Shown here: one piece after another, positions 48,696-58,057 of the stretch | Layout: every line of letters begins with the position of its first letter | Numbering within the stretch: position 1 is the stretch's first letter | DNA from: Capsulimonas corticalis | GTDB taxonomy: Bacteria; Armatimonadota; Armatimonadia; Armatimonadales; Capsulimonadaceae | Direction of reading: 5' to 3' | Assembly: GCF_003574315.2 (NCBI RefSeq) | Contig: NZ_AP025739.1 | Coordinates: 744,001-808,000 of the forward strand | DNA length: 64,000 nucleotides | Program-made: the position numbers and the translations under genes | The notes under the pieces: generated by a model | What the model was told of the DNA's origin: nothing | The model's input: the letters and a program-made list of their open reading frames with translations, nothing else | The model's database searches: none

Positions 48696-50546
48696 TTAGA
48701 GCACCAGCGACATGACGGCTTTTTGCGCGTGCAGGCGGTTCTCGGCCTGATCGAACACGACCGACTGCGGGCCTTCCAGCACATCCGCCGTGATCTCCTC
48801 GCCCCGGTGCGCGGGCAGGCAGTGCATCACCAGCGCGTCCGGCTTCGCAAGCGCGACCAGCTCCGCATTCACCTGAAACGGCGCGAAGATCTTCAGGCGC
48901 TCCGCCGTTTCTTCTTCCTGGCCCATCGATGTCCAGACATCGGTGTAAACGGCGTCGGCGTCCCTGACGCCCTCGGTCACATTGTCGGTGATGGTCAGCG
49001 TCGCGCCGGTTTCGGCGGCGCATCCCAGCGCGACCTGCCAGAGCGCCTCATCGGGCTCGTAGCCCTTGGGGCAGGCGATGGTGAAGTCCACGCCAACCTT
49101 CGCGGCCAGCAGCATCAGCGAGTGCGCCACGTTGTTGCCGTCGCCAACGTACGTCATCTTGAGGCCCGCCAGCCGTCCCTTGCGCTCCCCCAGCGTCTGG
49201 AAATCGGCGAGCGCCTGACACGGATGCTCCCGATCGCTCAGGCCGTTGATCACGGGGATACTGGCGTACTCGGCCAGATCCAGCACCGTCTGGTGCGCGA
49301 ACGTCCGCGCCATGATCCCATCGATCCAGCGATCCAGGTTGCGCGCGACATCCGGAACGGTCTCCCGGACTCCCAGACGCCCTTCCAGATAGATCGCATG
49401 GCCGCCCAGCTGGGTCATGCCCGCCTCGAAGGTAACGCGCGTGCGCAGCGACGGCTTTTCAAAGAGCAGCGCCAGGGTCTGCCCCTGCGCGAATTGCGTC
49501 TGGGTGACATCGTACTTGTTCGCCTTGAGCCGGGCCGCAACATCCAGGATCAGCATGATCTCGGCGCGCGTCAATTGTTCGATGCCGATAATGTCGCGGC
49601 CGCGCAGGGCGTGCTGGCTGAGGACATCGGCGATCGGGGAGACTCCGACGGGAGCCGCCATGCGCTGCGAAGTGACGGGAGAGAAGTTCTGCTGCGCGCC
49701 ATCCCCATCCGGACACGTCTCCGGCAGCGGCCGAGGCAGCACGCGCATCACGAGCGCTTCGCCATACGGCGTCGAGCGCTCCGACAGGAGAAGCTCGTAA
49801 CCGCGGCCGCCGTAGGCGACCGTGATCGCGCCGGTCGTCCCCGGCGCGGCGGGGGAGTTGATCATGCTCCGATAGCGCGCCACCAGCGGGAGCAGAAAAT
49901 GCTTGGGAACGGTCGTCGCCTCGCTGAACGAGCCCCACGCCAGATGCGCCACGCGCACATCGCCTTCTCGCGGCTCGATATGCACTTCCACAACCTGCTC
50001 CTTCAGCGCCTCCTGAAGGATCTGAGTCGCCATGCGGATGATCGGCGAATCGCCGCCGCCATGCGTTTCCAGGTCCGTCGGATCCTGCGCATTTTGCAGC
50101 AATGAGATTTCGGCGAGCAGCGCCGCCTCGCCCGCGCCGGCCTTGGTCAGCGCGGCGGAGATCGGGCTGTCCTCGAGACGCGTCAGCGCCACCAGCAGAT
50201 GCTCGGTGCCGATATACGATTCGTAGAGCGATTTCGCCGCCGCGTCCGCCAGATCCAGAACGCCCGAGGCTTCGGTTGTCAGCGGCCGCTCGCGGCTCGC
50301 CGACAGCGACAGCGGCAGATCGTGCTCCACGCTCTCCCCTTCGCCCGCCATCTGGTCCGCCGCCTTGGTCAGCGCCTCGACATTGACGCCCAGACGCGCC
50401 AGCACATAATCGGCCACGCCTTCCGTCTCGCCCAGCAGCGCAATATAAATATGCTCCGGCGTAATCTCCGCATGCGACCGCCGCGCCGCTTCCTGCTGCG
50501 CCGAGAATAGCACCATCCGCGCGTTAAGGGTCAATTGTTTAGACAT
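48696..50546 (-). CDS. argF: Fusion protein: Clp_N repeats - GspE-like domain - ornithine carbamoyltransferase
   Basis: 616 residues in one frame. Residues 1-150 hold two Clp R repeats (ITPEHIYIALLGETEGVADYVL; IGTEHLLVALTRLEDSPISAAL). Residues ~166-270 resemble the N-terminal part of the GspE/PilB ATPase domain (SPIIRMATQILQEAL, VEVHIEPREGDVRV, YGEALVMRVLP), stopping before any Walker A. Residues ~303-616 are a full ornithine carbamoyltransferase: FEKPSLRTRVTFE, HPCQALADF, VGDGNNVAHSL, HCLPAHRGEE. It should make citrulline from ornithine and carbamoyl phosphate. GGAG precedes the start; internal Met296 has no SD, so a real fusion is favoured. Confidence 0.88.
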   Translation of the reverse strand: MSKQLTLNARMVLFSAQQEAARRSHAEITPEHIYIALLGETEGVADYVLARLGVNVEALTKAADQMAGEGESVEHDLPLSLSASRERPLTTEASGVLDLADAAAKSLYESYIGTEHLLVALTRLEDSPISAALTKAGAGEAALLAEISLLQNAQDPTDLETHGGGDSPIIRMATQILQEALKEQVVEVHIEPREGDVRVAHLAWGSFSEATTVPKHFLLPLVARYRSMINSPAAPGTTGAITVAYGGRGYELLLSERSTPYGEALVMRVLPRPLPETCPDGDGAQQNFSPVTSQRMAAPVGVSPIADVLSQHALRGRDIIGIEQLTRAEIMLILDVAARLKANKYDVTQTQFAQGQTLALLFEKPSLRTRVTFEAGMTQLGGHAIYLEGRLGVRETVPDVARNLDRWIDGIMARTFAHQTVLDLAEYASIPVINGLSDREHPCQALADFQTLGERKGRLAGLKMTYVGDGNNVAHSLMLLAAKVGVDFTIACPKGYEPDEALWQVALGCAAETGATLTITDNVTEGVRDADAVYTDVWTSMGQEEETAERLKIFAPFQVNAELVALAKPDALVMHCLPAHRGEEITADVLEGPQSVVFDQAENRLHAQKAVMSLVL

Positions 50547-50865: not shown

Positions 50866-51300
50866 CTACTTCCCGATCTCGCCCCGCACCTTCTCCGTCG
50901 TCACGCCGTGCTCCGCGAGCAAACGGCCCGCCGCGCCTTCTTCCTCGCGGACCAGGCCCAGCAAAATATGCTCCGTGCCGATTTCGCCGGCGTTGTTTTC
51001 GCCCGCTTCCTGTTCGGCCAGGGCCAGCGCCATTTGCGCGGCTTCGGTGAACTCCAGTTTCCAGACCGGCAGCAGCGCTTCGCCGGACTCCGCGCCGGTC
51101 TCGATGTCGCCTTGCAGCACATCGAGGTCGACGCCCAGGCGGGTGATGATCGCGCACGCGACGTTTGTGCGCAGCGCCAGCAGGCCGAGCAGCAGGTGCT
51201 CGGTGTCCACTTCGTTCTGCCCGAAGCGACGCGCTTCTTCTTTCGAACGATAAATCACGCCGGCGGCGCTCAGTGTCAGGTTATCCCCCATGGCAGGCAT
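50866..51300 (-). CDS. Stand-alone Clp N-terminal (Clp R) domain protein
   Basis: 144 residues from ATG at 51300 (AGGGA about 9 nt upstream). Two Clp R repeats fill the protein: DTEHLLLGLLALRTNVACAII and GTEHILLGLVREEEGAAGRLL, as in ClpC or the plant ClpT/ClpS1 type. There is no AAA+ module. In Clp machines this domain binds adaptors and substrates; alone it might dock to ClpC or regulate it. It lies between argD and the ArgF fusion, which starts with the same domain type, so the two may interact. Confidence 0.85.
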   Translation of the reverse strand: MPAMGDNLTLSAAGVIYRSKEEARRFGQNEVDTEHLLLGLLALRTNVACAIITRLGVDLDVLQGDIETGAESGEALLPVWKLEFTEAAQMALALAEQEAGENNAGEIGTEHILLGLVREEEGAAGRLLAEHGVTTEKVRGEIGK

Positions 51301-51346
51301 TGTTTCGTTCCCTTCTCGGTTCCCAGCGAACATTGGACAGAATGAA

Positions 51347-53458: not shown

Positions 53459-53932
53459 TTATGATTCCGAAGATGCTCCCGGCCCCACGGGAATTAAGAT
53501 GCCCCCCGGCCCCCACAGGGGTGCAGACCATAGGGGCGAATACGTGATAATCTGTTCTTCAGAGGCTTCGATGATTTTTGTCAGCACACCTGACAAATCG
53601 TTCAAAATTTCGTTATTACGAAAACGAATAACTCGACAACCATAGGATTGTAAAAACAGTGTTCGCTCCGCGTCATATTCTTCACGCCCCTCATGCACAC
53701 TCCCATCCACTTCGACCGCAAGTTTACATGACGGACAATAAAAGTCGATCACAAATCGACCGAAAGGATGCTGAGAACGAAAGCGCAAGCCGTTCAACTT
53801 CTTTCCACTAATCGCATTCCATAAGCGCTGTTCCATCGGCGTCATCTCGCGACGCATTTGTTGCGCCGCCGCAAGAACCACCGGATCGGTCACAGGCAAT
53901 CGCTCCAAGTAGCCTTTGCCATCAAAACCCAT
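53459..53932 (-). CDS. DUF559 endonuclease-like protein inside an inverted-repeat element
   Basis: 157 residues. REMTPMEQRLWNAISGKKLNGLRFRSQHPFG, then VIDFYCPSCKLAVEVDGSVH and GCRVIRFRNNEILNDLSGVL, match DUF559, a PD-(D/E)xK nuclease-like family related to very-short-patch-repair (Vsr) endonucleases; D, E and D of the core are present. The usual fold ends near GVLTKII; the last ~25 residues are encoded by the left inverted repeat and flanking DNA up to argB. GAGGA lies 6 nt before the ATG. The gene interrupts the arginine operon and is bracketed by 36/37-bp inverted repeats. Confidence 0.85.
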   Translation of the reverse strand: MGFDGKGYLERLPVTDPVVLAAAQQMRREMTPMEQRLWNAISGKKLNGLRFRSQHPFGRFVIDFYCPSCKLAVEVDGSVHEGREEYDAERTLFLQSYGCRVIRFRNNEILNDLSGVLTKIIEASEEQIITYSPLWSAPLWGPGGILIPVGPGASSES

Positions 53933-56240: not shown

Positions 56241-57290
56241 CTATGGCCAAACAGCGGCCATCGTCAGGCCCGCCGTTTCGTCGAACCCGCAGGACAGGTT
56301 CATATTCTGGATCGCCTGTCCCGCCGCGCCCTTGACGAGATTGTCGATGGCGGAGATGACGATCACGCGGTTCGTCCGCGTGTCCACGGCCATCCCGATA
56401 TGGCAGTAATTCGTTCCCTCGGTATGCTTTGTCGCCGGGAACTGCCCGGCGTCCAATATCACGACAAACGGCGCGTCGGCGTAATAGGTATTGAACAGCG
56501 CCTGCAAATCGCCGGCGTCGGCCTTGAGATTGGCGTACGCCGTCGTGAGAATTCCCCGGGTGATCGGCGACAGATGCGGCGTGAATGTGATCAGCACGGG
56601 TTCGCCCGCGACTTGCGAAAGCGACTGCTCGATTTCCGGCACGTGCCGGTGAACGCCCGCGACGCCGTAGGGCTTGATGCTTTCATTGACTTCGCTGAAG
56701 TGGAAGTCCAGGCCGAACTTCGACCGGCCCGCGCCCGACACGCCGCTATGGCTGTCGATGATGATCGACTTGCGGTCGATGAGGTCCGCCGCGAGCAGCG
56801 GCGCCAGCGCCAGCGCCGCCGACGTTGGATAGCAGCCGGGATTGGCGATTAGCTTGGAAGCCTTGATGGCTTCTTTGTTCAGCTCCGGCAGGCCGTACGT
56901 CGCCTTGTCGATCCAGTCCTGCGCTTTGTGCTCGGACTTGTACCACTGCGCGTAGTGCGCCGGGTTCTTCAATCGGAAGTCCGCGCTCAGATCGATCACC
57001 GGCTTGCCCGCCGCGATCAGCGCCGGCGCGTGCTCCATCGCCAGCCCCGCCTCGCCGGCGAGAAAGACCAGATCGCAGCGCTCGATCGCCGTCTGCACAT
57101 CGAACTTCTCACACGTCAGATTGATGCGCTTCGCCACGCCCGGCAGCGCCGCCGAAAGCGGCTTGCCCGCATACGTCCCCGACGTCACATACGTCAGCTC
57201 CACATTCGGATGCCCCGCCAGCAGCCTCGCCAGCTCGCCTCCGCCATATCCCGATACTCCGACGATCCCCACTCGCAACCGATCCGTCAT
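56241..57290 (-). CDS. argC: N-acetyl-gamma-glutamyl-phosphate reductase
   Basis: 349 residues. RVGIVGVSGYGGGELARLL binds NADPH, and ANPGCYPTSAALAL holds the catalytic Cys that forms the thioester. HRHVPEIEQSL carries the proton-transfer His. It reduces N-acetylglutamyl phosphate to the semialdehyde. It is the first structural gene after the attenuator-like leader and overlaps the GNAT frame only if the TTG start is used. Confidence 0.97.
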   Translation of the reverse strand: MTDRLRVGIVGVSGYGGGELARLLAGHPNVELTYVTSGTYAGKPLSAALPGVAKRINLTCEKFDVQTAIERCDLVFLAGEAGLAMEHAPALIAAGKPVIDLSADFRLKNPAHYAQWYKSEHKAQDWIDKATYGLPELNKEAIKASKLIANPGCYPTSAALALAPLLAADLIDRKSIIIDSHSGVSGAGRSKFGLDFHFSEVNESIKPYGVAGVHRHVPEIEQSLSQVAGEPVLITFTPHLSPITRGILTTAYANLKADAGDLQALFNTYYADAPFVVILDAGQFPATKHTEGTNYCHIGMAVDTRTNRVIVISAIDNLVKGAAGQAIQNMNLSCGFDETAGLTMAAVWP

Positions 57291-57304: not shown

Positions 57305-57362
57305 AAAATAAAAAAGAACGCCGCCCGCCGTCTTAACTCATTAAGACTGGCGCGCGGCGTTC
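57305..57362 (-). terminator. Terminator 2 of the arginine-operon leader
   Basis: On the minus strand GAACGCCGC (57362-57354) pairs with GCGGCGTTC (57324-57316). An inner stem GTCTTAA/TTAAGAC (57347-57341 with 57336-57330) has a TGAG loop, and a run of T (57315-57310) follows. It lies 15 bp upstream of argC, so it must be read through for expression. Confidence 0.88.
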
Positions 57363-57365
57363 CCC

Positions 57366-57433
57366 AAAAGCAAAAAGCCGCGCGCCATCGAATTCCCGTG
57401 CCTCAGTAAGAGGAAGGGAAATGGCCCGCGGCT
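57366..57433 (-). terminator. Terminator 1 of the arginine-operon leader
   Basis: On the minus strand AGCCGCGGGCCAT (57433-57421) pairs with ATGGCGCGCGGCT (57388-57376), 12 of 13 positions, around a 32-nt loop, followed by TTTTGCTTTT. Its first four bases are also the 3' end of the hairpin at 57430-57448, so the two structures exclude each other. Confidence 0.7.
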
Positions 57434-57448
57434 CGATCAAATCGAGCC
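57430..57448 (-). promoter_or_regulatory. Anti-terminator-like hairpin in the arg leader
   Basis: GGCTCGAT (57448-57441 on the minus strand) and ATCGAGCC (57437-57430) form a perfect 8-bp stem with a 3-nt loop, competing with terminator 1. Immediately upstream a CACGC/GCGTG hairpin (about 57464-57454) carries the leader peptide's UAA stop in its loop. Confidence 0.65.
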
Positions 57449-57458
57449 TTCTCCACGC

Positions 57459-57536
57459 TTAGCGTGTCGCGGACGCATTTCCCAAAACACGAACGCGACG
57501 ACGCAGCGGCAGGTTGTTTGCTGCTAGAAAAGACAT
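57459..57536 (-). CDS. Arginine-rich leader peptide of the arg operon
   Basis: A 25-codon frame from ATG at 57536 to TAA at 57459. It begins MSFLAANN and contains LRRRVRVLG, so four of five successive codons code for Arg, and ends in another Arg codon directly before the stop. The frame lies right after the promoter and before two terminators and a competing hairpin: the classic design of amino-acid attenuation. The ATG is only a few bases from the predicted start site, so translation may be leaderless; no SD is possible. Confidence 0.65.
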   Translation of the reverse strand: MSFLAANNLPLRRRVRVLGNASATR

Positions 57537-57545
57537 TGTACGGAA

Positions 57546-57575
57546 AGTCTACCCGGCGCAAAGGCGATTTGTCAA
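57546..57575 (-). promoter_or_regulatory. Promoter of the arginine operon
   Basis: On the minus strand TTGACA (57575-57570), an 18-bp spacer and TAGACT (57551-57546). A second TTGACA lies 10 bp further upstream (57585-57580). A TACAAT (57540-57535) could be an alternative -10, but it would put the start inside the leader peptide. Confidence 0.65.
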
Positions 57576-57679
57576 GCAATGTCAAGAGGATCTTGTACAT
57601 TCCCTAAGCATAAGCTTTGATGGCGACGATAGGAAATACAGAAAGAGATTTTCACGAGGCGATGATTACGAGGATGAAA

Positions 57680-58057
57680 ATGAGAAACGATCACCATCTT
57701 ACATCTGAACAGCTTCTCGCGGATTTACAATCTCCGGACGAAACCATCCGGGCCAAAGCCATTCACGCAGCTTGCCCGTGTGAGGCGGGGATGGAGCTGT
57801 TTGAGAAGCATATCGATCTCCTTGCAGGGATGAAAAAAGACCCTAGCCCCCTTGTACGCACAGTCGCTCTGCACGTCTTTCAAGACGCTTTTGAAGGTAT
57901 ATGCGATAGCTTTCCGACCAGTCGCGCCGAGACGACAAACGAAATATTACGCACGCGAAGACAATCACGCTTCAAACGTGAGGAGGTTGAAACAACTGAG
58001 AACAAGCCCCTCCTCGAAAACAAGCGTCGCGTCCGTCGATTGCGAAATCAGCGTTAA
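57680..58057 (+). CDS. HEAT-like repeat protein
   Basis: 125 residues from ATG 57680 (AGGA 5 nt upstream; ATG 57662 is the alternative). TSEQLLADLQSPDETIRAKAIHAACPCEAGM and LLAGMKKDPSPLVRTVALHVFQDAFEG look like two HEAT-type helical repeats, which mediate protein binding. The C-terminus is strongly basic (NKRRVRRLRNQR) and could bind nucleic acid. No function can be named. It is divergent from the arginine operon, and base composition is lower in GC than its neighbours. Confidence 0.6.
   Translation: MRNDHHLTSEQLLADLQSPDETIRAKAIHAACPCEAGMELFEKHIDLLAGMKKDPSPLVRTVALHVFQDAFEGICDSFPTSRAETTNEILRTRRQSRFKREEVETTENKPLLENKRRVRRLRNQR

Follow-up and report, generated by a model that had tools for sequence, protein, structure and literature searches.

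A predicted arginine-sensing transcription attenuator in front of argC in Capsulimonas corticalis and other Armatimonadota

The arginine biosynthetic operon of Capsulimonas corticalis appears to be preceded by a ribosome-mediated transcription attenuator that would sense charged tRNA-Arg and control the argC-J-B-D-F genes; we give this reading a probability of about 0.86. It builds on features that can be read directly from the DNA, namely, a promoter, a short open reading frame (ORF) with a run of Arg codons, terminators, compensatory changes in a long-range helix (A:B), mutually exclusive use of strand B of this helix, and restriction of the arrangement to argC. The logic of the switch is known; its specificity for arginine and the phylum in which it is found appear to be new.

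The leader and its operon

The window, a 64,000-nucleotide stretch of the C. corticalis genome (7.65 Mb, a single contig), carries on its minus strand an operon with the gene order argC - GNAT - argJ - (DUF559) - argB - argD - Clp_N - argF. Its argC gene is 95% identical to argC of a Capsulimonas sp. MAG. The DUF559 (endonuclease-like) gene at 53459-53932 lies between argJ and argB, inside the arginine operon, and argF encodes a fusion of ornithine carbamoyltransferase with a Clp_N domain at the N terminus and with a weak T2SSE-like stretch, a separate Clp_N gene adjoining it (48696-50546 and 50866-51333). The following elements, given in the order of transcription, lead up to the first gene of the operon.

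57546..57575, minus strand: sigma-70-type promoter (TTGACA at 57575-57570, 18-nt spacer, TAGACT at 57551-57546)
57459..57536, minus strand: leader peptide ORF of 25 codons, MSFLAANNLPLRRRVRVLGNASATR followed by a stop codon; conserved in the same genus and family
57489..57503, minus strand: putative sensor codons CGT CGT CGC GTT CGT (R R R V R); Arg runs stand at the matching place in relatives
57468..57483, minus strand: segment A, GGGAAATGCGTCCGCG, 5' strand of the predicted antiterminator; within the ORF, directly past the Arg codons
57454..57466, minus strand: small hairpin CACGC-TAA-GCGTG, its loop holding the leader stop codon; inside the antiterminator
57430..57448, minus strand: 8-bp hairpin GGCTCGAT-TTG-ATCGAGCC (z -4.9); stacks inside the antiterminator
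57416..57430, minus strand: segment B, CGCGGGCCATTTCCC, 5' arm of terminator 1; pairs with A or with C
57372..57433, minus strand: terminator 1 (B:C), z -5.9, U-tract at 57376-57372
57377..57386, minus strand: segment C, GGCGCGCGGC, 3' arm of terminator 1; perfect complement of D
57349..57358, minus strand: segment D, GCCGCGCGCC, 5' arm of terminator 2; C..D z -4.4
57311..57363, minus strand: terminator 2 (D:E), with a U-tract, z -8.4
56241..57290, minus strand: argC (Pfam Semialdhyde_dh), first gene of the operon

As can be seen, the promoter, the 25-codon frame with the motif LRRRVR, both hairpins, the two terminators and argC all lie where a preliminary description of this sequence had placed them. 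The promoter is the sole consensus match in a 600-base stretch (1 found, 0.3 expected), and its layout is alike in relatives. The leader ATG is located 9 nt past the -10 box, and the same distance is 9-10 nt in all five family relatives checked; judged by this promoter spacing, the ORF is probably near-leaderless, as remarked earlier. The Arg residues are encoded by leader codons 12, 13, 14 and 16 (57503-57489). For each of the two terminators, none of 200 shuffled sequences was as stable. A simple scan for consensus terminators found none and thus listed neither terminator 1 nor terminator 2, probably because both stems are interrupted.

We infer that the frame is translated and that the leader operates as follows. 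When arginine is short, the ribosome would stall on CGT CGT CGC GTT CGT and leave segment A free; A:B would then pair, terminator 1 (B:C) would be blocked and RNA polymerase would pass. The freed segment C could pair with D, which would prevent terminator 2 (D:E). With ample arginine, the ribosome would reach the stop codon and cover A, B:C and D:E would pair, and transcription would end at terminator 1, terminator 2 providing a further block.

Predicted antiterminator pairing, ribosome position and the second terminator

The preliminary description had pointed to competing hairpins. Mutually exclusive structures are indeed predicted, but the predicted antiterminator is the long-range helix A:B. 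The 8-bp hairpin was considered for this part and set aside: its overlap with terminator 1, AGCC, amounts to only four bases, and more distant relatives do not have it in their pattern. Little stability was calculated for the stop-codon hairpin (folded stretch 57465-57453, z -1.9), and both small hairpins fall outside the conserved pattern beyond the closest relatives. The A:B helix, which is 14 bp long, encloses both of them, and the 68 bases from A to B fold as one structure with -40.4 kcal/mol (z -6.5).

Conservation of the Arg run and the stems in related leaders had been named as a check of the attenuator reading; in these leaders Arg codons recur, and both A:B and B:C pairing are kept. 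The core of B, GCCGTGG, is near-constant in relatives and its partner is found past the Arg codons, in the region of the leader stop codon. Pairs flanking the core co-vary (AT, GC, CG and TA at column 11 of B; CG, TG, GC, TA and AT at column 9). In a sequence-only alignment of 12 leaders, A:B was paired in 86.8% of cells, as opposed to 24-45% when the strands were slid, with six cells having both sides changed, and B:C was paired in 89.6% of cells. The A:B pairing exceeded that of dinucleotide shuffles of the A regions in most of 20 relatives, with a Fisher p of about 6e-14, which treats related species as independent and is thus overstated and not a strict probability. One relative (G027) has unrelated sequence at the A:B site, yet a 12-bp A:B helix is kept there; A:B is weak in three others (G139, G106 and G041).

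The effect of the ribosome was calculated with a folding model that places its leading edge 12 nt past the A-site codon and ignores tertiary contacts and real transcription speed. For C. corticalis, the calculated probability of A:B before C is made was 0.89-0.92 with the ribosome at codons 7-15, decreased to 0.76 at codon 16 and 0.55 at codon 17, and was 0 from codon 19 on. With no ribosome the calculated value was 0.43, and the only candidate for the hairpin 1:2 that pauses polymerase in attenuators of this kind, and gives termination when the leader is not translated, is the weak one at the stop codon. In 18 of 20 relatives, B was calculated to pair upstream before C is made with a probability of 0.6-1.0 for a ribosome on the Arg codons; in most relatives this probability was lower with the ribosome at the stop codon. 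By this model, the Arg run at codons 12-14 and 16 has the placement that an attenuator needs, and, as expected of an attenuator, antiterminator and terminator exclude each other, the 5' strand of the antiterminator being covered by a ribosome that has reached the stop codon and accessible while one is stalled at the run.

The calculated equilibrium energies of A:B and terminator 1 in C. corticalis are nearly the same (-49.2 vs. -49.7 kcal/mol), and of terminator 2 and C:D the former is the more stable (-88.9 vs. -84.7 kcal/mol). It follows that the switch must be kinetic, with A:B presumably being trapped.

Since the second, serial terminator must also open for argC to be transcribed, and C:D is the sole candidate pairing that we saw, we propose that C:D serves as a second antiterminator, so that a relay opens both terminators. 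Over ten bases, segments C (57386-57377) and D (57358-57349) are perfectly complementary. In the stalled-state fold of one relative (G071, locus L079), A:B and C:D are present together and the terminator is open, and in its stop-codon-state fold B:C and the terminator are formed. Over 18 species, C:D jointly exceeded shuffled sequences (Fisher p about 8e-7), though not singly in many of them; this statistic takes related species as independent, and terminator arms of like sequence could give part of the signal. The C:D relay is the least certain step of the scheme, and we put it at just short of an even chance.

Occurrence in Armatimonadota

A run of Arg codons alone is weak evidence, since such runs arise easily by chance in GC-rich DNA: one was present in 29 of 127 argC upstream regions, compared to 15.8 in shuffled sequences. 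The frequency of such chance runs is what would speak for regarding the whole leader as ordinary terminators of an upstream unit accompanied by a fortuitous Arg-rich frame. We consider this explanation hardly credible. The gene upstream of the leader (57617-58057) lies on the opposite strand, and an Arg run followed by a downstream terminator was present in 24 of the 127 regions, as opposed to 3.0 among shuffled sequences and 4 when the reverse strand was examined, with the positive regions clustering in related families. Moreover, A:B covaries, and two covariance models applied to 201 Armatimonadota genomes gave 30 strong matches, one per genome, each adjoining argC.

Model R1 matched 16 genomes, once each, and 15 of these matches are beside argC; they include two (in G118 and G170) that were not used in building the model. 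In G118 (contig C261, locus L157), a GNAT acetyltransferase gene is located between the leader and argC, and the leader would control it too. Model R2, which describes a second class of leaders, matched 15 genomes, once each and always beside argC. Three of its matches (G009, G098 and G127) come from outside the model and each has a start codon, a promoter-like site and an Arg run; as both models start in the Arg run, the Arg codons in new matches are partly non-independent. Weak model matches (L161 and L177-L184, E 2.7e-4 to 9e-3) have no argC nearby and were taken as chance. Stems conserved in the absence of Arg codons, which would have spoken against the preliminary description, were looked for in relatives and not found, a result partly biased by the Arg-codon columns that the covariance models include.

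The leader was present in all seven sampled genomes of family f1, to which C. corticalis belongs; of the eight argC regions from the sister family f2 with sufficient upstream length, seven had an Arg run. In family f9, leaders with longer 5' ends (L158/L034 and L036) are found in only part of the family, and some argC regions have no such leader. In one genome (G154), an Arg-rich frame is located about 480 nt before argC. Leaders were also sought before argG, carA and argS of the window genome, as well as before hisG, and were not found.

The second class occurs in families f11, f21, f26 and f38 (loci L098, L102, L104, L112, L114, L115, L117, L118, L120, L123, L070, L067, L172, L173 and L175). 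Its peptides end in RARR, RARRG or RARRA and its terminator region differs from that of the first class. The leaders of this class contain near-invariant CGCGCCAGGCG and AGGCA...TGCCGCCCG, and candidate alternative pairings, GGCAT:ATGCC vs. ATGCCGCCC:GGGGGGCAT, were noted by eye.

The peptides themselves bear on another explanation, according to which the leader encodes an arginine-dependent arrest peptide and free arginine stalls the ribosome at the leader end, favouring the terminator. A ribosome held at the stop codon would hide A and give the right sign, and within families the residues near the run show partial similarity (LRRRVR, RRRxRR). However, the length and sequence of the leader peptide differ widely, and what the leaders share is Arg codons just before A; in family f1, the conserved tail NASATR falls on segment A, and RNA pairing accounts for its conservation. 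An arrest peptide is therefore improbable for the leaders as a whole, though it is less easily excluded for class 2, where the tail RARR stands just before the stop codon.

The Arg run is mostly broken once, as RRRxR(R), where x is V, E, I or L. Its codons in 21 leaders are 63% CGT and 28% CGC, compared to 10% CGT and 58% CGC in genes of the window. CGT and CGC are normally read by one tRNA (ACG anticodon). The predominance of CGT, along with the recurrence of Arg codons while A:B and its flanks vary, argues against an arginine riboswitch, a T-box or a protein-bound RNA to which the Arg-rich frame is incidental. Segment A also lies within the ORF or next to it, a place in which nothing but a ribosome would cover it. 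No Rfam family matches the leader at the gathering score, with chance-level scores only below it, and a T-box covariance model (specifier loop, T-box sequence) gave no match there. The strong conservation of the GCCGTGG core would fit such an RNA, and a survey of Actinobacteria, which lists no RNA element for arginine in that group, names T-boxes for arginine elsewhere (PMC1262725). On balance, we consider an RNA of this kind very improbable, and attenuation by the trp/his logic, as suggested in the preliminary description, is the reading best supported by the Arg run with its terminator, the A:B covariation and the restriction to argC.

ArgR (PF01316) is present in 12 of the 201 genomes, all from families f14 and f40 and none with a leader found here. 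The leader-bearing families among these genomes have no ArgR, none being encoded by the window genome either. A broader picture would have a single stalled ribosome drive a two-stage relay, in which A:B and then C:D replace B:C and D:E, as the phylum's substitute for ArgR, with the RARR leaders of class 2 as a second solution. We offer this picture tentatively, as one that has rather less than even odds.

Comparison with known regulatory systems

In other bacteria, arginine control is usually exerted by the ArgR repressor or by T-boxes. ArgR/ARG-box repression and arginine T-boxes serve the same physiological task as that proposed for the leader described here, which does not qualify as a member of an ArgR regulon. 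Regulation in Armatimonadota is almost unstudied, and a leader standing where ArgR is missing would illustrate how, in a phylum, an RNA switch can take the place of a repressor. Its two classes, the serial terminators and the CGT-biased sensor codons allow direct and simple tests. We found no leader-peptide attenuator of an arginine biosynthetic operon in the literature within our reach, which leaves out many older papers, and priority is not claimed.

Arginine-dependent arrest peptides are represented by the fungal arginine attenuator peptide and SpeFL. In the Salmonella speF leader, arginine is sensed through ribosome pausing at consecutive Arg codons of orf34, which changes the RNA structure (PMC6386406). 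In contrast to the argC leader, orf34 has two Arg codons, and ornithine decarboxylase is controlled via Rho, access to the ribosome binding site (RBS) and RNase G (PMC6386406). The argC leader does not belong to the speF family, as it has no Rfam match and no ornithine decarboxylase gene downstream. Arg codons of a leader ORF also sense arginine shortage in S. aureus rbfL (PMC13009471), which, unlike the argC leader, uses rare AGA/AGG codons and RBS occlusion and represses a biofilm regulator (PMC13009471).

By its logic, the argC leader would belong with the attenuators that have product-codon-rich leader peptides. Those of trp, his, leu, thr, phe and ilv operons are found in Proteobacteria and in some Actinobacteria and Firmicutes. 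They have in common with the argC leader a short ORF in which codons for the product amino acid abound, exclusive antiterminator and terminator structures, and a location before a biosynthetic operon. The argC leader differs from them in its amino acid, arginine, in its phylum, in the near-leaderless ORF, in the location of strand A within or at the end of the ORF, and in the two serial terminators with complementary neighbouring arms.

A leader of apparently the same design, which we read as a tryptophan attenuator in Armatimonadota, precedes trpE of C. corticalis (contig C1, 2802996-2802834, locus L186). It encodes MMASGQQRSANWWWRSQTSGKRPTPSHAA, followed by a stop codon, with a WWW run, and its ATG is close past the -10 box, making it near-leaderless. 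Past the WWW run, GGAAACGTCC pairs with GGGACGTTTCC, the 5' arm of the terminator, and in a folding calculation this helix, which resembles A:B, forms before the terminator is complete. The equilibrium imbalance is like that of the arginine leader, and commitment would likewise be kinetic. The two leaders thus share the near-leaderless ORF and a segment past the codon run that pairs with the 5' arm of the terminator; they differ in that tryptophan would be sensed in front of trpE and that a single terminator is present there. Since the host appears to use the same type of switch for tryptophan, the arginine reading of the argC leader becomes more likely.
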